Shown: piece after piece, positions 389 through 43,125 of the stretch
Position numbering within the stretch: the first letter of the stretch is position 1
Layout of the letters: each line of letters starts with the position of its first letter
DNA from: a virus
IMG/VR virus record: IMGVR_UViG_3300044712_001935
Coordinates: 1 to 43,125 of that record
Length of the DNA: 43,125 bases
Strand: one strand, 5' to 3'
Program-made: the position numbers and the translations under genes
Notes under the pieces: model-generated
What the model was told of the DNA's origin: nothing
Databases searched by the model: none
The model's input: the letters and a program-made list of their open reading frames with translations, nothing else

Positions 389-451
389 GCCCAACTCGGC
401 GCTCAACTCGGGCCCGCGTAGACGTGGGCCGGTTAGCTGGGTTTGTTAGGC
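389..451 (-). other. attC site A (first site of the array, after DUF5131)
   Basis: Minus-strand order: R'' GCCTAAC (445-451), L'' AGCTAAC (432-438), L' GTTGAGC (401-407), R' GTTGGGC (389-395), with a GC-rich palindrome between L'' and L'. The TAA stop of the DUF5131 gene lies inside R''. This is the promoter-proximal boundary of the array and occupies the place where an attI would sit in an ordinary integron. Confidence 0.93.
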
Positions 452-7668: not shown

Positions 7669-8380
7669 ACTAGCCGAACGCGTTGCCCTTGCGATGGAGG
7701 CCCACCGGTTGCGGCCGGTGGACATCGCTCGTCGCGGCGGCCCGAGCCGGCCCACGCTCCACCGGATCCTCACCAACCCGGACTACGAGCCCGATGACAC
7801 CACCCTCGACCGGTTGGCCGATGCCCTCGGCGTCTCGCGGATCTGGCTCAAGGAAGGCACCGGCCCCATGGATTCGCCCACCTTCCTGGCCTCCGGCGGC
7901 GGGAAGTCCGCGGCGGTATTCCAGCTACTGCAGGGCGCCTCGTTCATGCCCACCCTGGCCCCCGGTTTCGGTGCACGAATGGGCCTGGCCCGGCGCGAGA
8001 TGGGGATGTCGATTGCCGCGGCTGCCCAGACCCTCAAGATCCCCAGGCGCCGCCTGACCGCCTTTGAAGCCGAGACCGAGGAACCGACCCTGCCCGAGCT
8101 GATGTCCATCACGCTGGGCTACCAGACCAACGTCCGCCATCTCACGACCGGGCAGAGCGAGGCGCCCTTGGATATGGTCCGGGAAGTGGCGGCCGCGCCC
8201 TATCAGACCTCAGGGCTGGACCGGGGGCTGCTCTCCCGCGCCCTGGCCGCGGCCCTCGCCTTCCGCCCCCGGCGGGGTCCTGATCGCCTGGCCGCCGCCA
8301 TCACGGATGCCTATGACATGGCCAGCAAGCCGGGCAACGCGGGGAAAATGGAAGATCTGGTAAAGGCCTTGCTGAAATAA
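7661..8380 (+). CDS. Phage repressor with two helix-turn-helix domains
   Basis: The TTG at 7661 has an AAGGGG Shine-Dalgarno about ten bases upstream and gives MKQLAERVALAMEAHRLRPVDIARR. An ATG at 7619 in the same frame is an alternative. The 239-aa product has an XRE-type HTH at about residues 5-62 and a second HTH-like domain at about 105-155 (LARREMGMSIAAAAQTLKIPRRRLTAFEAETEEPTLPELMSI). There is no S24/LexA-type peptidase with Ser-Lys dyad, so RecA-driven self-cleavage is not expected. It is divergent from the Ner/Cro gene across the operators, the usual CI position. Confidence 0.82.
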   Translation: MKQLAERVALAMEAHRLRPVDIARRGGPSRPTLHRILTNPDYEPDDTTLDRLADALGVSRIWLKEGTGPMDSPTFLASGGGKSAAVFQLLQGASFMPTLAPGFGARMGLARREMGMSIAAAAQTLKIPRRRLTAFEAETEEPTLPELMSITLGYQTNVRHLTTGQSEAPLDMVREVAAAPYQTSGLDRGLLSRALAAALAFRPRRGPDRLAAAITDAYDMASKPGNAGKMEDLVKALLK

Positions 8381-8428
8381 TTGCCCATCCAGTGCTATGC
8401 TGCTCCATAAATAACCATGGGAGCCTTT

Positions 8429-8752
8429 ATGCGCATCGCTCCAGCGTTGATCCTCGTGATCCTGGTCTTCATGCCCGGCTGTGAGTCGAAGCGCCAGGCC
8501 CGGCAGAAGCAGGAATTCACGACGCTCATGGATGAGAAGATAAGGCCCATCACTCTTTCCGCCGAAGATCGCATCTACCTTGATCGGCTTTCCGGGAAGT
8601 ACCAGGAGCGGCTTTCATTCCTCCGGGACCTGGCCGTGAAGCAGAAAGAGGACGCGATCAAGTCAGGAATGCTCTATAAAGTCGAACCGTTGAACCAATA
8701 TGTTTTATTGATAGACCGCTATTCAGCTATCGACAAATTGAATATCGACTGA
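8429..8752 (+). CDS. Small lipoprotein (lysogenic conversion candidate)
   Basis: From the ATG at 8429, preceded by GGGAG, the 107-aa protein has a signal peptide MRIAPALILVILVFMPGC ending in a lipobox (MPGC) with the lipidated Cys at residue 18. The mature part is charged and helical. It lies downstream of the repressor, the place for genes expressed from a prophage. Such small lipoproteins often block superinfection, but nothing here shows that directly. An upstream ATG at 8417 is possible. Confidence 0.75.
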   Translation: MRIAPALILVILVFMPGCESKRQARQKQEFTTLMDEKIRPITLSAEDRIYLDRLSGKYQERLSFLRDLAVKQKEDAIKSGMLYKVEPLNQYVLLIDRYSAIDKLNID

Positions 8753-34322: not shown

Positions 34323-34528
34323 GCGGAGACCCCCAGTTCGCGCAGCAGCCTCTCCTCCGCTTGCGCTCGGGTCTGCCCGAACTGGAACCAGACATACGCC
34401 CCAGGCTCATCCACCGGATCCCTCCCGAGGATCGGCCCCATCTTGGCCCAGGCCACAAAGCCGCCGCTCTTACCTTCGGCGGAGGCGAGGTGGAAGGGGG
34501 GGGCGTGGCGCTTCTCGATGTTCTTCAT
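34319..34528 (-). CDS. Small protein between TerS and TerL (69 aa)
   Basis: The ATG overlaps the terminase small-subunit stop (ATGA) and gives MKNIEKRHAPPFHLASAEGKSGGFVAWAKMGPILGRDPVDEPGAYVWFQFGQ. The C-terminal end overlaps the TerL start by four bases. It may be a terminase accessory protein, but no family was recognised. Coupling on both sides is the main support. Confidence 0.6.
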   Translation of the reverse strand: MKNIEKRHAPPFHLASAEGKSGGFVAWAKMGPILGRDPVDEPGAYVWFQFGQTRAQAEERLLRELGVSA

Positions 34529-38158: not shown

Positions 38159-39015
38159 GTCGGATCACCTGTGCGCAGCAGTTTCGGGATGGCGAAGGAG
38201 GCGGAGGGCGCGCCGCCTGGGCGCAGCGGCAGCACCCTCGGCGGGCTGGCCCGGGAGCCGCCGTGGCTGTTCTGGGCCTTCTCCAGCCATCCCATGACGA
38301 AGCGGCCCATACCCCTGGCGGTCTTCCGCCGCTTGTCGTTCACCTGCAGCCAGAGGAGCATCTTCCTGGCTTCAGTCATGGGGTCCACCCCGGGGAAGGC
38401 CTCACCCCACTGGCGCAGCATCCCCTCCGTGACCGGCCAGGATTTCCCATCAGACCCAGCGCAGGGCAACTCCAGCACCACCGGCGTGGAGTCGGACTTG
38501 CCCGGCTCCGCGCAAGCTTTTAAGGGTGCGGGTGCGGGTGCGGGTGCGGGAGTGACGTTCACTTGCTGCTTTTTGCTGCTCGTTTGCTGCTCGTTTGCTG
38601 CTCGTTTGCTGCTCGTTTGCTTGCCGCCCTTGCTCCCGGCCTCGGCCCGGATGGCCGAAAGGGTCTGCCCCTTGGCCCGGCGATCGGCCTCCCGAAGCAT
38701 CCGGGTGGCCACGTAGCGGGGGGCATGGTCGTAGAAGTCATGGCAGCGGTAGAGGCCCGGGCGGCCCGGGACCTCTTCGATGTAGCCGGACTCCCCCTCA
38801 CCCCCAGCATTCAGAAGGGCCTGGCACAGCTCCCCAGGCTTCCCGGGCCACTCCGCCAGTGCCTCGACGCTGGTTGAGTCACCCAGGTAGTCATCCCCGT
38901 TGATGCAGCACTTCTCCCAGATGAGTTCCAGGCACCCGAGGGCGAGGGGTGCGCAGCCCAGCAGGAACTTCAGCCGGACGAACTTGCGGTGTCCAGTGGC
39001 ACCAGGCCGAGCCAT
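38155..39015 (-). CDS. Phage replication initiator (O/DnaD-like), contains iterons
   Basis: ATG with GGGAGGG, overlapping the upstream stop, gives 286 aa. The first 110 residues resemble a winged-helix initiator (KFVRLKFLLGCAPLALGCLELIWEKCCINGDDYLGDSTSVEALAEWPGKPGELCQALLNAGGE...). A low-complexity linker follows (KQTSSKRAANEQQTSSKKQQVN, then AP repeats), and a C-terminal domain that may bind the loader (EGMLRQWGEAFPGVDPMTEARKMLLWLQVNDKRRKTARGMGRFVMGWLEKA). Four 11-bp direct repeats lie inside the gene, as in lambda O. Confidence 0.75.
   Translation of the reverse strand: MARPGATGHRKFVRLKFLLGCAPLALGCLELIWEKCCINGDDYLGDSTSVEALAEWPGKPGELCQALLNAGGEGESGYIEEVPGRPGLYRCHDFYDHAPRYVATRMLREADRRAKGQTLSAIRAEAGSKGGKQTSSKRAANEQQTSSKKQQVNVTPAPAPAPAPLKACAEPGKSDSTPVVLELPCAGSDGKSWPVTEGMLRQWGEAFPGVDPMTEARKMLLWLQVNDKRRKTARGMGRFVMGWLEKAQNSHGGSRASPPRVLPLRPGGAPSASFAIPKLLRTGDPT
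38525..38618. repeat. Iterons and hexamer repeats: candidate origin of replication
   Basis: Four perfect copies of GCTGCTCGTTT (11 bp) lie head to tail at 38575-38618. Just before, GGGTGC repeats about four times near 38525-38550. The 11-bp period is close to one helical turn, which is the usual spacing for initiator binding, and is not a multiple of three, so it is not simply protein repetition. Lambda O carries its origin iterons inside the gene in this way. Confidence 0.7.
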
Positions 39016-39254
39016 CACGCCCTCCCGTCGATGAGGGCCAGACGCTCAGCCTCTTCTCTTTTGGCGGCCTCGAAACGGGCCCGCGCCATGGGCAGAGCGC
39101 TCCTGGCCGCCTTTTTGAGCTTGCGAGGCGTGCGCTGTGGCCATTTGGGATAGGCCAGCTGCTCAAGAACCGAGAGGACGAGTTGCTTGGCCACGAGGCG
39201 CTGGATCGTGTGAACCACCATGGCGAAAGGAGAAGGGCTTTTCTGGGTATCCAT
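39015..39254 (-). CDS. Hypothetical protein (79 aa) before initiator
   Basis: An ATG after GAGGGGG overlaps the DUF3850 stop (TGATG). The protein MDTQKSPSPFAMVVHTIQRLVAKQLVLSVLEQLAYPKWPQ... is basic and helical, with a K/R-rich centre (RTPRKLKKAARSALPMARARFEAAKREEAERL). It could be a nucleic-acid binding protein; this is only a composition-based guess. Confidence 0.6.
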   Translation of the reverse strand: MDTQKSPSPFAMVVHTIQRLVAKQLVLSVLEQLAYPKWPQRTPRKLKKAARSALPMARARFEAAKREEAERLALIDGRA

Positions 39255-39688
39255 CACACCCCCTCGAATTCACAGAACTGCTCAACCACCCGAGCCTCAG
39301 CCTCCCGAGCCTCCTTGACGCCCCGGGCCGCCGCCAGGAGGGCTTCCTCCTCGACGGCACCGAAGACCGGCTTCACACCCAGCAGCTCGGCCACCTGGTG
39401 CAGCAGGGCCCCCAGGCGGGCCTGCTCGGCCGCCAGGGTGGCGTCCTCCACCCCCAGCACCACCAGGCCATCGGGGAGGGCCAGCGGCCCCGCCGAGCGG
39501 ATCACGCAGGTGGTGCGCCGCAGGAGCTCCCGGCCTGTGTAGGAGCGGCTGAAGGGATCCCACTCCTGGAGGCAGAGCGTGTCCCCAGCTGCGAAGCCGC
39601 GGTCATCCACGCGGATCTCGAAGGGCTTCAGGCCGCCCAGCGAGGCATTGAACGGCTCGGGCCAGGTCTTAAGGAAGTGGGTGGTCAC
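39254..39688 (-). CDS. DUF3850 / ASCH-like RNA-binding protein
   Basis: The GTG start gives MTTHFLKTWPEPFNASLGGLKPFEIRVDDRGFAAGDTLCLQEWDPFSRSYTGRELLRRTTCVIRSAG, a clear DUF3850 (ASCH-superfamily) pattern: KxWPEPF, GxKPFEIRxDDRGFxxGDxLxLxEWD, YTGREL. ASCH domains often act on RNA. A helical C-terminal extension of about 60 residues (EEEALLAAARGVKEAREAEARVVEQF) is unusual for the short family. It is the first gene of the block after the cassette array. Confidence 0.8.
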   Translation of the reverse strand: MTTHFLKTWPEPFNASLGGLKPFEIRVDDRGFAAGDTLCLQEWDPFSRSYTGRELLRRTTCVIRSAGPLALPDGLVVLGVEDATLAAEQARLGALLHQVAELLGVKPVFGAVEEEALLAAARGVKEAREAEARVVEQFCEFEGV

Positions 39689-39827
39689 CGTCCCACCTCG
39701 ATCCGCCGATTTTTAGTACGCATTCGCATGATGGAGTCCCAGGGGATTTGCAGCATTTACGTTCAAAAAAGACTGATTAGGCGAACTGGGAGGGGGCGTC
39801 CGAGTTCGTCTAATACAAAGTTGGGCG
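39689..39827. other. Boundary region: array end, terminator-like hairpin and degenerate attC K
   Basis: On the minus strand, R'' GCCCAAC (39820-39826), then ATTAGAC (39808-39814), an 11-of-12-bp stem (ATTAG-CGAACT to AGTTCG-CTAAT), and five bases later TTTTTT (39765-39770). It can be read as an attC lacking R', or as a hairpin terminator ending the array transcript, or both. The rest, 39689-39764, precedes DUF3850; TACTAA (complement of 39713-39718) is a weak -10 candidate. Confidence 0.55.
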
Positions 39828-39920
39828 CTAGTCGCGCTTCCAAAACCGTTTCGACTTCAGGGCGCGCCGCATCTTCCGGTTCGTCCAGATCAACTTCCAG
39901 ATTTCACTTGGTTTCAACAC
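39828..39920 (-). CDS. Cassette 10: very basic micro-protein (30 aa)
   Basis: A GTG with AAGGAGG five bases upstream gives MLKPSEIWKLIWTNRKMRRAL... ending KSKRFWKRD, with about ten Lys/Arg in 30 residues. The TAG stop lies one base before the GCCCAAC core, exactly as in cassette 1 and cassette 7. The strong ribosome site and the cassette position support it; size alone cannot. It may bind DNA or RNA. Confidence 0.55.
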   Translation of the reverse strand: MLKPSEIWKLIWTNRKMRRALKSKRFWKRD

Positions 39921-39940
39921 CGTGCCCTCCTTGTCGCGCT

Positions 39941-40025
39941 GCCCAACCTGCCGCTGAACCTCGCTCGTTTCGCTCGCTGGACCCCTGCGCTACGCTCCGG
40001 GGCCGGTTAGCTTCATTCGTTATGC
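39941..40025 (-). other. attC site J (3' end of cassette 9)
   Basis: Minus-strand order: R'' GCATAAC (40019-40025), L'' AGCTAAC (40006-40012), a large GC-rich palindrome, L' GTTCAGC (39953-39959) and R' GTTGGGC (39941-39947). R'' supplies the TAA stop of the DUF551 gene. Length 85 bp. R'' and R' differ in one pairing position. Confidence 0.9.
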
Positions 40026-40421
40026 CGCTGGCCCAGCGGGTCGGGGCATCCAGTGGCTGGGCTGGTGAACCTCTTCCCACCCAGGAGACTCGAACCCGTC
40101 GCGGCCCCAATTCACCCAGCGAGTCCCATCCCAGTGGCAGTCAAGTTCGCGGCTCTCGGCCCAGTCCACATAGAGGTCGATCACAGTCCCGTCAGTGGGC
40201 GCGGTTTCGATGGGCTGCCATCCGACCAGGCCATTCAGGGCGTGCTCCAGCATCACCTTGGCCTGGATCGCTGTCAGGAGGTTCGTGCCAACAGGCCACA
40301 GGCCCGGCCACGGCTTCAGCTTCTCGGGATCGAAAGTGATCCCACAGTCGGGGTTGAAGTCCTTGGGCAGTTTCCAACCAAGGAAACGATCTACGGCGTG
40401 GTCAATCAGAGTTTTCGTCAT
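40020..40421 (-). CDS. Cassette 9: DUF551-containing protein (133 aa)
   Basis: MTKTLIDHAVDRFLGWKLPKDFNPDCGITFDPEKLKPWPGLWPVGTN... has an N-terminal helical part (about 1-60) resembling phage early proteins with the FLGWKLP motif. A C-terminal DUF551 domain follows (GWQPIETAPTDGTVIDLYVDWAESRELDCHWDG...HQPSHWMPRPAG, about 69-130). DUF551 is common in phage genomes and its function is unknown. The ATG has AAGGAG; the TAA stop lies in attC R''. It shows that a typical phage gene circulates as an integron cassette. Confidence 0.85.
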   Translation of the reverse strand: MTKTLIDHAVDRFLGWKLPKDFNPDCGITFDPEKLKPWPGLWPVGTNLLTAIQAKVMLEHALNGLVGWQPIETAPTDGTVIDLYVDWAESRELDCHWDGTRWVNWGRDGFESPGWEEVHQPSHWMPRPAGPAA

Positions 40422-40452
40422 GCTATCTCCTTCGATTTTCCCGTTGCACGCG

Positions 40453-40510
40453 GCATAACCAGTCGCTCAGCGTCGGACCCTATCGGGCCGAGCTAGCTCC
40501 GAAGTTGGGC
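40453..40510 (-). other. attC site I (3' end of cassette 8)
   Basis: Minus-strand order: R'' GCCCAAC (40504-40510), L'' AGCTAGC (40492-40498), a short palindrome, L' GCTGAGC (40465-40471) and R' GTTATGC (40453-40459). Spacing between boxes (12 bases) equals that of the other sites, but L'' and L' have one base change each. At 58 bp it is at the short end of known attC lengths. Confidence 0.82.
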
Positions 40511-40749
40511 GCGTACACGCTCACGCACGCCCCTTGGGATTGGAGCGAGTGCTTCATTTCAGGTGTGGGAGACTGGCCCAGCTCGCGCAATACGGTGGAG
40601 ATGCCGGCGTTGCCCACCCGCCGTCCCCCTTCACCGGGCTTCATCTGTTCAAGTGCAGGAGCCTGGCGCTGGTCGTTCATTTTGGCGGAGGTGCCAGCGT
40701 TGCCTGCCCGCCAACCCCTCCTCCCACGCTTCAGCCGTGCTTTCATCAT
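40480..40749 (-). CDS. Cassette 8 protein with internal 30-aa repeat (89 aa)
   Basis: The best start is ATG at 40749, with AAGGAAAT upstream: MMKARLKRGRRGWRAGNAGTSAKMNDQ... The protein has an imperfect 30-aa repeat, GRRGWRAGNAGTSA and GGRRVGNAGIST, matching a 35-bp DNA repeat 90 bp apart. It is Arg/Gly-rich. The frame runs through the R'' core of attC I and stops at 40480 inside the site. No family was recognised; a plus-strand reading of this segment is open but has no good ribosome site. Confidence 0.45.
   Translation of the reverse strand: MMKARLKRGRRGWRAGNAGTSAKMNDQRQAPALEQMKPGEGGRRVGNAGISTVLRELGQSPTPEMKHSLQSQGACVSVYAPNFGASSAR
40594..40718. repeat. Imperfect 35-bp duplication in cassette 8
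   Basis: Bases 40594-40628 and 40684-40718 match at about 28 of 35 positions, with a spacing of exactly 90 bp. Because 90 is a multiple of three the duplication is kept in frame in the minus-strand gene and produces the GNAG repeat. Confidence 0.75.
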
Positions 40750-40772
40750 ACCAATTTCCTTTTTCATTGGGC

Positions 40773-40839
40773 GTCCAACCAGCTCGCTCAACCCGGACCC
40801 GTGCGCAAGCGCCCGGTCCGGTTAGCTCGAAAGTTGGGC
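40773..40839 (-). other. attC site H (3' end of cassette 7)
   Basis: Minus-strand order: R'' GCCCAAC (40833-40839), L'' AGCTAAC (40821-40827), GGACCGGGCG palindrome, L' GTTGAGC (40786-40792) and R' GTTGGAC (40773-40779). Its R''-L'' half has the same spacer (TTTCG) as sites F and G. Length 67 bp. Confidence 0.93.
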
Positions 40840-40840
40840 G

Positions 40841-41122
40841 CTACATCGTCTTGCTGATTTGGTGAACCCTCATCTGGTAGCGGTGGTCCGCACCATCTGC
40901 GAGATCGAACTGCCAATCGTTAAATGCCGCCTCCATCTCCGCGATGTGGGCACACAAACCCTCGACCACCGAGACTTCCCCGAAGGCCCTGGGTGATTGC
41001 TTAATTTCTTCCAGGGTCACACCCCCATAGGTGCGCTCAACTGGTCGCTCAACACGGACCCCGCCTGCATCCATCCCGCACACGCAGGGGTGGTTATGGC
41101 AATCATTGCAAACTCCGCTCAT
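40841..41122 (-). CDS. Cassette 7: Cys-rich N-terminal protein whose start lies inside attC G
   Basis: The ATG at 41122 has AAAGGAGA upstream and gives MSGVCNDCHNHPCVCGMDAGG..., a metal-binding-type Cys/His cluster. The segment RVERPVERT is encoded by the L' and R' boxes of attC G (41035-41053). The rest (GVTLEEIKQSPRAFGEVSVVEGLCAHIAEMEAAFNDWQFDLADGAD) is helical. So the first 27 or so codons belong to the upstream attC loop, and excision of cassette 6 would remove them. TAG lies one base before attC H. Confidence 0.75.
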   Translation of the reverse strand: MSGVCNDCHNHPCVCGMDAGGVRVERPVERTYGGVTLEEIKQSPRAFGEVSVVEGLCAHIAEMEAAFNDWQFDLADGADHRYQMRVHQISKTM

Positions 41123-41168
41123 CGCTCGTTCTCCTTTCCGGCGGGGCCGGTTAGCTCGAAAGTTAGGC
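41035..41168 (-). other. attC site G, long form (134 bp), overlapping a gene start
   Basis: Minus-strand order: R'' GCCTAAC (41162-41168), L'' AGCTAAC (41150-41156), stem GGCGGGG matched by CCCCGCC next to L', then L' GTTGAGC (41047-41053) and R' GTTGAGC (41035-41041). Box spacing is 12, as elsewhere. The terminal loop is about 90 bases and holds the Shine-Dalgarno and start of the next gene. R' is not the standard GTTRRRY complement of R''. Confidence 0.7.
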
Positions 41169-41357
41169 CGTGATTCTGCTTTTTCGGTTGTCCCGAGAAC
41201 GCTTCGCTTGGGCCTTCTTGACCGCCTTGGTCCTCTCGGTTGCCCAAACATAGAAGAACTCACAGCCGTCAACATCTTTGTAGTCCTGTTTGCTTCCGCC
41301 TGAACTCCAACCCCCGTTCGGGAATCTCACAACAAGCCATTGCTGCTCCATGCGCAT
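41163..41357 (-). CDS. Cassette 6: hypothetical protein (64 aa)
   Basis: AAAGGAGAGAG then ATG gives MRMEQQWLVVRFPNGGWSSGGSKQDYKDVDGCEFFYVWATERTKAVKKAQAKRSRD. The N-terminal half is beta-like and the C-terminal 20 residues are strongly basic. The TAA stop is within R'' of attC G. No family was recognised. Confidence 0.75.
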   Translation of the reverse strand: MRMEQQWLVVRFPNGGWSSGGSKQDYKDVDGCEFFYVWATERTKAVKKAQAKRSRDNRKSRITA

Positions 41358-41380
41358 CTCTCTCCTTTCGTTGTGGTGGG

Positions 41381-41446
41381 GCCTAACCGGCTCGCTCAAC
41401 GCCGGACCCAAACTGCGCTTGGTCCGGGTTAGCTCGAAAGTTGGGC
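41381..41446 (-). other. attC site F (3' end of cassette 5)
   Basis: Minus-strand order: R'' GCCCAAC (41440-41446), L'' AGCTAAC (41428-41434), palindrome CCGGACC...GGTCCGG, L' GTTGAGC (41394-41400) and R' GTTAGGC (41381-41387). Length 66 bp. All four boxes are near-consensus with the L' extrahelical base. Confidence 0.94.
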
Positions 41447-41452
41447 CGCTCG

Positions 41453-41701
41453 CTAGAAGCTCTTTCCGCACCTGGCGCAAACCGGCGCGACGGTGGGCGG
41501 TTGTTTTTTCCCTGCTTTGTTGAAAACAGTGTTTCTGAACTCTTCGCACAGGCGGTCCAGATCCTCGGGCTCCAAATCCGACAGGGGAACCCTGGAACCA
41601 TTGGGGTCGAAACCCTCCTGCCTGGGCTTCGCGCCTAGTTCCAGAAGGACAAAATTAGGAACTTGGAAGGGTTTGAGTGACACCTTCAATGTGGCCTTCA
41701 T
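41453..41701 (-). CDS. Cassette 5: small protein with C-terminal CxxC (82 aa)
   Basis: The ATG follows GAAGGAG and encodes MKATLKVSLKPFQVPNFVLLELGAKPRQEGFDPNGSRVPLSDLEPEDLDRLCEEFRNTVFNKAGKK. It ends in PVCARCGKSF, half of a zinc knuckle. The layout (beta strand, acidic helix, Cys pair) resembles small zinc-binding proteins, but no family was assigned. The TAG is just before attC F. Confidence 0.75.
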   Translation of the reverse strand: MKATLKVSLKPFQVPNFVLLELGAKPRQEGFDPNGSRVPLSDLEPEDLDRLCEEFRNTVFNKAGKKQPPTVAPVCARCGKSF

Positions 41702-41731
41702 GTTTTCTCCTTCAATTGGTTTCGATTCGCG

Positions 41732-41789
41732 GCCCAACAGGTCGTTCCAACCGGACGCCTGCGGCGCCTGCTGAACTCCGAAGTTAGCC
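41732..41789 (-). other. attC site E (3' end of cassette 4)
   Basis: Minus-strand order: R'' GGCTAAC (41783-41789), L'' AGTTCAG (41771-41777), palindrome GGCGCCGCAGGCGTCC, L' GTTGGAA (41745-41751) and R' GTTGGGC (41732-41738). L'' and L' pair with mismatches, so it is a diverged site, though box spacing is kept. It shares the GACGCCTGCGGCGCC palindrome with sites B and C. Confidence 0.85.
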
Positions 41790-41996
41790 GTCGTGCGACA
41801 GCATCAAATCCGCATAGGTGCTGCTGTCGGTGGTTCTGAGGTTGAGTGGCGACACCTCGCGGACTTGATTCGACAGGCCACGCCCATCCCCAAGCCACAC
41901 CTCGCAAAGCTCTCCCTCTTCGTTTTCTTCCGGCCAATCCTTGACGAGTTCTTTCAACTCTCGAACCGTCAGGCCATTTTCAAATCTGGTTGGCAT
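41784..41996 (-). CDS. Cassette 4: acidic hypothetical protein (70 aa)
   Basis: MPTRFENGLTVRELKELVKDWPEENEEGELCEVWLGDGRGLSNQVREVSPLNL... is acidic, mixed alpha/beta. It resembles small phage proteins with the LTVRELKELVKDWPEENEDGE motif, though I cannot name them. The Shine-Dalgarno GGAGGG is supplied by the spacer between L' and R' of attC D, about 12 bases upstream. The TAA is in R'' of attC E. Confidence 0.78.
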   Translation of the reverse strand: MPTRFENGLTVRELKELVKDWPEENEEGELCEVWLGDGRGLSNQVREVSPLNLRTTDSSTYADLMLSHDG

Positions 41997-42002
41997 GATC
42001 AC

Positions 42003-42089
42003 GCCTAACCCTCCGCTCAACCTTCACTCGCTTCGCTCGTCGGACCCGTCAGGCTGCGCCTGCCGGCCCGGGTTAGCTTTCCGTTAGCC
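42003..42089 (-). other. attC site D (3' end of cassette 3)
   Basis: Minus-strand order: R'' GGCTAAC (42083-42089), L'' AGCTAAC (42072-42078), a long GC-rich palindrome, L' GTTGAGC (42015-42021) and R' GTTAGGC (42003-42009). Its spacer between L' and R' contains GGAGGG, used as a ribosome site by the next gene. Length 87 bp. Confidence 0.92.
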
Positions 42090-42791
42090 AGCCTTCATCA
42101 GGCGGCCCGTGAGCCTTTCAAATGCAAGATGAGCCACCGCTGGAATCTGGATGTTCCCAAGGGCAACACGCTCGCCCATCCCGCGGGGATACCCACGAAC
42201 CACTCGCACCACCGCGGGTTCAACGGCCCACCAAGAAGGTCCGACAGAGATCGGCTCTTCCCATGATGCTTGCCGGGTTGCTTCGCATCGGCAGCCAGCA
42301 GTGTGGGCAACAATCCAAGTGCGTTTTCTACGATGGGGAGCGCCAACCTGGTCCGCGCTGAAACAACCCCATTCCGCATCGAACCCCAGCGCGGCCAGAT
42401 CCCCGAGAACGCCGTCGAGTCCCCGAACAGGGAGGTCAACGGTGTTCTCCACGAACACGAAATGTGGTCCCACCTGGCGAATGATTCGTGCCATTTCCCG
42501 CCAGAGGCCGGAGTGTTCGCCTTCGAGTCCGGCCCTGTTGCCTGCGGATGAGATGTCAGTGCAAGGGAATCCTCCCGCCACGATGTCAACCCGTCCACGC
42601 CAAGGTATTCCGTCGAAGGTTCGCACGTCATCCCAGATGGGGAACCATGGCAGGGCCTCGTCTCGTTGGCGCTGGAGCAGGACCTGGCGACAGTGCGAGT
42701 CCAACTCGACGGCGCCAACGCAGACATTTCCTCCCAGGATTCGACCGAGGATTCCTCCCCCGATTCCAGCAAAAAGGTGTAGCTCACGCAT
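42084..42791 (-). CDS. dcm: Cassette 3: DNA cytosine-5 methyltransferase (orphan)
   Basis: The 235-aa protein contains motif I LHLFAGIGG (residues 4-12), motif IV GGFPCTDIS with catalytic Cys77, motif VI FVFVENTVDL (Glu115-Asn116) and motif VIII QVGAPHRRKRTWIV (about 148-161). A motif IX/X region (GERVALGNIQIPAV) follows. The target-recognition part is short. No restriction enzyme is adjacent, so it is an orphan that could modify phage DNA against host restriction. ATG with GAAGGAGA; TAA in attC D. Confidence 0.93.
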   Translation of the reverse strand: MRELHLFAGIGGGILGRILGGNVCVGAVELDSHCRQVLLQRQRDEALPWFPIWDDVRTFDGIPWRGRVDIVAGGFPCTDISSAGNRAGLEGEHSGLWREMARIIRQVGPHFVFVENTVDLPVRGLDGVLGDLAALGFDAEWGCFSADQVGAPHRRKRTWIVAHTAGCRCEATRQASWEEPISVGPSWWAVEPAVVRVVRGYPRGMGERVALGNIQIPAVAHLAFERLTGRLMKAG

Positions 42792-42820
42792 TTTTCTCCT
42801 TCGATTTTCAGTCGGCGGCT

Positions 42821-42898
42821 GGCTAACCATCTCGCTCAACCTGCGCTCGTTTCACTCGCCGGACGCCTGCGGCGCCGGGTTAGCTCGGGGCGTTGGGC
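42821..42898 (-). other. attC site C (3' end of cassette 2)
   Basis: Minus-strand order: R'' GCCCAAC (42892-42898), L'' AGCTAAC (42879-42885), L' GTTGAGC (42834-42840) and R' GTTAGCC (42821-42827). From the R' cleavage point on it is identical to attC B over more than 70 bases. The two neighbouring cassettes therefore carry the same site, but different genes. Confidence 0.95.
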
Positions 42899-42899
42899 A

Positions 42900-43058
42900 C
42901 TATCGCCATCGCGTGATTTCGTATCTCAACTTGTGCTTCTTGCAGTAGCGAAGAACACGTTTGATCTTTCGCCAGTGAGATTTGAAGAATGTCTCTTCGG
43001 TCATCACATCCCAGTCCATCGGGGGGCACTCGTATTCGACCGAAAACCTGTGACTCAT
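42900..43058 (-). CDS. Cassette 2: small basic protein (52 aa)
   Basis: ATG with AAAGGA gives MSHRFSVEYECPPMDWDVMTEETFFKSHWRKIKRVLRYCKKHKLRYEITRWR. An acidic aromatic N-terminal part is followed by a strongly basic helix. The gene's 5' end and leader are repeated at window positions 1-53 because of the circular overlap. The TAG is two bases before attC C. Its function is unknown; a nucleic-acid or inhibitor role is possible. Confidence 0.75.
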   Translation of the reverse strand: MSHRFSVEYECPPMDWDVMTEETFFKSHWRKIKRVLRYCKKHKLRYEITRWR

Positions 43059-43125
43059 CGTGTCCTTTCCGGGCATCGCGCCCAACCATCTCGCTCAACC
43101 TGCGCTCGTTTCACTCGCCGGACGC

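Follow-up and report, generated by a model that had tools for sequence, protein, structure and literature searches.

Organization of the cassette array

The window (the whole stretch of DNA analyzed) is an IMG/VR virus record of 43,125 bases. Comparison of its ends revealed an exact 99-bp terminal repeat (1-99 = 43027-43125), and because both ends are identical the record closes into a circle, though it is classed as linear. About ten attC sites form an array that follows an attI-like core and continues across the join of the circular map. The main features are given below.

39804..39826, + strand: attI-like core GTTCGTCTAATACAAAGTTGGGC where the array begins on the left, common to the phages G003 and G004 and a Geothrix prophage and resembling the host attI
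39827..43125, running over the 99-bp overlap of the ends as far as base 451: attC cassette array, every gene on the - strand
40834..41162, + strand: predicted mobile cassette, from the G|TT of the preceding R' box to the G of its own R' box, placed by polarity and by the cassette borders of relatives
40841..41122, - strand: cassette gene of 93 aa with an N-terminal Cys cluster, codons 1-29 within the attC
41035..41168, + strand, bottom strand = -: attC of 134 bp pointing rightwards, assigned from its boxes, arms, left-arm extrahelical bases and fold
41035..41041, + strand: R'' box GCTCAAC, read as R' in the preliminary description; in the polarity found, crossover is not assigned to this box
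41047..41053, + strand: L'' box GCTCAAC with an extra C (extrahelical G on the - strand)
41131..41137, - strand: Shine-Dalgarno sequence AAAGGAG, in the loop beside the stem
41162..41168, + strand: R' box GTTAGGC, predicted crossover 41162|41163
389..451, + strand: final attC of the array, beyond the circular-map join

All annotated cassette genes of the window are reversed relative to the attC sites, and for several of them the TTA of the R' box provides the TAA stop codon. With at least two neighbouring attC sites in an element that contains no intI, the array is a CALIN; an attI-like core is present but intI is absent from the window record, so that it is not a complete integron, and the reversed genes also differ from standard gene cassettes, in which the gene is read toward its own attC and the attC is located at the 3' end. 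The gene at 40480-40767 crosses an R' box and ends within the adjacent attC, showing that not every gene fits one cassette neatly.

No phage record exceeded the curated cut-off for an integron integrase (TIGR02249 for the window record), and an IntI over the cut-off was identified in three of five scanned genomes of the genus Geothrix. The host of the window phage is probably a Geothrix-like soil bacterium, a call made solely from the attC and attI sequences. Comparison of the proteins of the window phage with those of the other array-bearing phages and the Geothrix prophage revealed almost no genes in common.

The attC at 41035-41168 and its gene

The boxes, arms and fold of the site at 41035-41168 agree with an attC of 134 bp, as the preliminary description had proposed. 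An attC contains inverted R''-L'' and L'-R' boxes of the form RYYYAAC ... GTTRRRY within an imperfect hairpin; here the boxes are GCTCAAC ... GTTAGGC and the stem is CGGACCCCGCC/GGCGGGGCCG. The loop is long, and the stability of the hairpin is consequently unexceptional overall (DNA z = -1.6).

The gene on the minus strand begins with ATG at 41122-41120 and ends with the stop codon TAG at 40841-40843. Its start within the attC had been described with 27 codons inside the site; the Shine-Dalgarno sequence, the ATG and an open frame are indeed present in the loop, and the number of codons inside is 29, of which about 20 (MSGVCNDCHNHPCVCGMDAG) belong to the loop proper and about 10 (GVRVERPVER) to the left arm. 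The AAAGGAG, the ATG and the Cys cluster CNDCHNHPCVCG were each located in the attC-encoded N-terminus or directly ahead of it, as had been reported. The peptide VERPVER, previously assigned to the L' and R' boxes, is encoded by the two left boxes, which in the correct polarity are R'' and L''.

The Shine-Dalgarno sequence is strong and well spaced, and the predicted start of the 93-aa gene within the attC loop is confirmed at the level of sequence. The preliminary description had set its reading against a true start farther downstream and a lack of homologues carrying the Cys cluster; no comparable start is present downstream, and in the collections searched (IMG/VR, INPHARED, 47 Geothrix-genus genomes, Pfam and PHROGs) the window protein has no relatives. 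When relatives of the Cys-cluster loop were sought in Geothrix, the attC arms alone matched. Since the gene and its N-terminus are without relatives, the argument for this particular start is built on the Shine-Dalgarno sequence, the frame and analogy. The GC content by codon position is coding-like in the body of the gene and not clearly so in the N-terminal part.

Polarity and predicted position of crossover

The strand of an attC that is recombined is set by extrahelical bases, which are found in L'' and are absent from L', and the cut is made solely at R' (PMC2727003). Alignment of the left arm GCTCAACACGGACCCCGCC of the 41035-41168 site with the reverse complement of its right arm (GCT-AAC-CGG-CCCCGCC) gave three extrahelical bases with spacings of 4 and 4, corresponding to G/T/T on the minus strand, and all three lie on the left arm only, in agreement with the rule that such bases mark L'' on the recombined strand. 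Because the extrahelical bases are confined to the left arm, the attC points rightwards and the crossover box is GTTAGGC at 41162-41168. Extra bases were more numerous on the left at 57 of the 61 sites in inverted arrays and at 54/55 sites in standard Geothrix arrays.

At their left ends the phage and prophage arrays have the attI-like core GTTCGTCTAATACAAAGTTRGGC or a close variant of it; in Geothrix fuzhouensis the attI next to the true IntI gene is CAGTCGTCCAATTCAAAGTTAGGC. Positions 40703-41013 of G003 contain a cassette of the Geothrix chromosomal integron in + orientation between two R' boxes (85% identity over 316 bp), and this host-type cassette in a phage array is direct evidence, in its sequence, of exchange between the host integron and phage. 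G001 and G003 share a gene at 95% identity, and its left border coincides exactly with the R' box before it, CGTTGGGCGCTA. From the polarity and the cassette borders at R' boxes, the mobile unit is predicted to be 40834-41162 with the whole gene inside. Excision or insertion of a neighbour would leave the N-terminus in place because the gene and its N-terminus share one cassette, and the earlier proposal that such events at 41041 swap the N-terminus is not supported, the predicted crossover being at 41162|41163.

Over 38335-39830 of the window (1496 bp), a stretch that ends at the attI-like core, the identity with G003 is 98.9%; the cassettes beyond it differ, which also supports the rightward polarity. 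Such cassette turnover between relatives is consistent with recombination by an integron integrase. G003 (L042-L044) contains two attI-like sites, near 1471 and 39460, each with its own inverted cassette array.

Inverted arrays and loop starts in other genomes

Back-to-front arrays were also found in unrelated phages (G001/G002, G003 and G004), in a Geothrix fuzhouensis SG12 prophage that has terminase, portal and head protease genes, and in further contigs including those of Geothrix. With an attC finder that misses some sites, the longer ORF was reversed in 53 of 61 attC intervals of inverted arrays and in 9/55 intervals of standard Geothrix arrays (p = 5e-15).

A loop start was defined as an ATG with a Shine-Dalgarno sequence inside the attC and an ORF that stays open for at least 20 codons past the site. 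Loop starts were present in 24 of 61 attC sites of inverted arrays, part of this set having been found using loop sequence as bait, compared with none of 55 in standard Geothrix arrays; among inverted-array sites of at least 90 bp the proportion was 24/38. Most matches in the search with loop-sequence patterns had no attC array. When only the arrays found through attI or R' patterns were counted (the window, G001, G003, G004 and the prophage), 13 of 38 sites had a loop start against 0/55 (Fisher p = 2e-6), and for sites of at least 90 bp the counts were 13/20 against 0/54 (p = 7e-10), the 13 including the window site that had prompted the search.

The bodies in frame with loop starts include an HNH domain (PF01844, 24.1 bits) and a Lar domain (PF14354, 44.4 bits). 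In the Geothrix fuzhouensis SG12 prophage the N-termini predicted from loop starts include (M)TKQNAPEAGSESSARLDR and (M)AESNAGGVRVER. In G004 (reverse strand, 8361-8458), a leader of 21 codons from a loop start terminates shortly after R'' and overlaps the likely start of the next ORF, an arrangement that suggests translational coupling.

Exchange of starts and bodies

An all-against-all comparison of cassette bodies was blurred by undetected attC sites, and the results given here are from individually inspected pairs alone. One loop start, MT[KN]QNAPEAGSESSA, was found in front of at least six different bodies. In the prophage it stands before an HNH protein and another body, in G003 before a Lar-like protein, in G026 before an ASCH-like protein, in G027, where it reads MMNQNAPE, before the body LGWPVGV, and in L134 and L140 before two others; the second of the prophage bodies is a weak case that may lie antisense to a non-coding cassette. 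In the reverse case, the body LPFLGLLSPEKTEAIMRGERV is preceded by three different in-frame loop starts, MQDESNEPKGPVERGVRR (G003, G004), MTKDNAGGVRVERTVRR (G025) and MSEHQTKAESGNGGVRVDAPVRRG (L149), and in the prophage its leader is out of frame. The body LGWPVGV is present in two contigs of one fragmentary genome, both copies being near contig ends, and the sequence from the left stem through the body is 100% identical while the loops and right arms differ.

In relatives, the start/body junctions map to R'', to the spacer or to the stem, and these positions favour attC replacement or cassette formation over an integrase cut at the left box, though R'' may on rare occasions be cut. In the G001/G003 pair the stem is altered on both arms with retention of pairing and of the reading frame, as would be expected if both the hairpin and the start were selected. 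The N-terminal shuffling anticipated in the preliminary description thus has a historical counterpart in the exchange of attC-loop N-termini, although not as a shuffling of domains, since no exchanged folded domain was seen among the start/body pairs of relatives and the exchanged segments are mostly short hydrophilic leaders.

Shared C-terminal tails were also observed behind different bodies: ERFPALYYRSMDDCIDRREP and PSAPPWE.EKWPK, in the genes at G003 40585 and L140 1915 and in those at L088 834 and L090 4918. Cassette mosaicism is therefore not confined to the attC.

Comparison with known integron systems

Phages are already known to contain clusters of attC sites without an integrase, and these sites are functional with IntI1 (Qi et al. 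2023, PMC9892861). These phage CALINs resemble the window in having intI-less attC arrays within phage genomes, methyltransferase cassettes and sites that a bacterial IntI can use. In contrast to the arrangement here, where all genes are reversed with respect to the attC sites, their genes run in the usual direction or their attC sites diverge (PMC9892861), and the arrays described here differ further in the presence of an attI-like site and of starts in the attC loops. The sedentary chromosomal integron of Geothrix, with IntI, attI and dozens of attC sites, shares its attC arms, polarity and attI core with the phage arrays, but its genes run with the attC and open loop starts number 0/55, whereas the phage arrays are reversed. 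Fused cassettes and ORF-11 of attI1 (PMC4670013, PMC8876359) are similar in that integron sites lend translation signals or coding sequence to the next gene; these arise from loss of attC or from attI, while in the present arrays the start is held by an intact attC, which would itself be translated. The open-licence literature searched contained no account of attC arrays whose genes are all reversed, or of start codons placed in attC loops.

Proposed mechanism and alternative explanations

It is quite probable, judging from the sequences compared, that the locus is a back-to-front phage integron array without an integrase of its own, in which whole-gene cassettes are moved by the IntI of the host and the loop half of the attC is replaced at a later stage. 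As the attC sites and the attI-like site point right and the genes read left, each attC is placed at the 5' end of its own gene, where the loop can accommodate the ribosome site and start codon, and the left arm (L'' and R'') would be translated as a short leader fused to the body. A Geothrix-like host IntI would act on the minus (bottom) strand, recombining it at the R' boxes (40833|40834 and 41162|41163), and the gene would travel with its own N-terminus as a single cassette. In the longer term, replacement of the loop half of an attC, either by recombination between similar arms or during the formation of new cassettes, would give a new start to the same body and place the same start on other bodies. 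Leftward transcripts of the array would yield mRNA with each attC ahead of its gene. Hairpins of attC have been reported to hinder ribosomes, in work cited in PMC4670013, and a start in the loop would let ribosomes initiate beyond the 5' arm and unwind the 3' arm as translation proceeds. The attC loop is best read as a putative portable translation start. Polarity, inversion, the recurrence of loop starts and the reassortment of starts and bodies between relatives are seen directly in the sequences, whereas the use of a host IntI, translation from the loop and the route of exchange are inferred.

An arrangement in which the attC sites point leftwards, with R' at 41035-41041, the gene spanning a cassette border and an integrase acting at 41041 to swap the N-terminus, would give the genes their usual direction with stops near R'', and several of the start/body junctions in relatives (the MTKQNAPE and MKPSNEG groups) do fall near the left box. 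This polarity was rejected and is highly improbable, as the extrahelical bases are on the left arm, the attI-like site is at the left end of the array, the borders of the host cassette and of the shared gene are at right boxes, and some junctions lie in the spacer or stem instead of at a left-box G|TT. It is also improbable, though to a lesser degree, that the start of the loop ORF is incidental, the true start lying elsewhere or the frame of the gene being unexpressed. The body and N-terminus without a homologue in any collection searched, and the N-terminal GC pattern, would be in keeping with such an incidental start; the strength and spacing of the Shine-Dalgarno sequence, the lack of a comparable downstream start and the coding-like GC pattern of the body argue against it, as does the recurrence of loop starts in sister arrays in frame with Pfam domains.

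Close to an even chance is given to a further explanation, which leaves the main anatomy intact and bears on what it means: the loop would serve as a translation start only, the leaders being neutral and their variety arising from fast drift and cassette formation, with no benefit from shuffling. The leaders are short and hydrophilic, the loop changes rapidly in front of the 95% identical body of G001 and G003, in the prophage copy of the LPFLG gene the leader is out of frame and terminates at R'', and ordinary integrons also share attC families between different genes. Against neutrality, many frames stay open through the attC, and the Cys cluster of the window leader may be more than random. 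A more ambitious interpretation, which we hold tentatively and judge somewhat less than evenly likely, is that in phages of Geothrix-like bacteria a reversed integron has arisen whose attC hairpin acts as a portable start module, comprising the ribosome site, the start codon and an N-terminal tag in the loop, and that attC recombination builds in-frame proteins from interchangeable starts and bodies.

In integron cassettes the attC normally lies behind the gene and affects expression mainly as a barrier. An attC that lies ahead of its gene with the start in its loop would be under selection for its DNA hairpin and for its coding sequence alike. Combinations of starts and bodies can be compared directly between relatives in such phage arrays, which bears on the initial assembly of cassettes, a poorly understood step, and the phages draw on the same cassette pool as the chromosomal integrons of their hosts.

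Other features of the window

ARAGORN placed a tRNA-Pro(ggg) at 34367-34463, at the upstream end of the terminase gene, which is probably spurious. An inverted repeat (ATTAGGCGAAC ... GTTCGTCTAAT) that is shared with the Geothrix prophage stands ahead of the attI-like core (window 39777-39826; L008 about 2799-2850). The first cassette past the attI-like site (39828-39920) contains just an ORF of 30 aa with a GTG start and a good Shine-Dalgarno sequence. The cassette at 42084-42791 encodes a C5 cytosine methylase whose match to the PF00145 profile is limited to roughly its first half (5-166 of 324), and which may be truncated or lack the recognition part.
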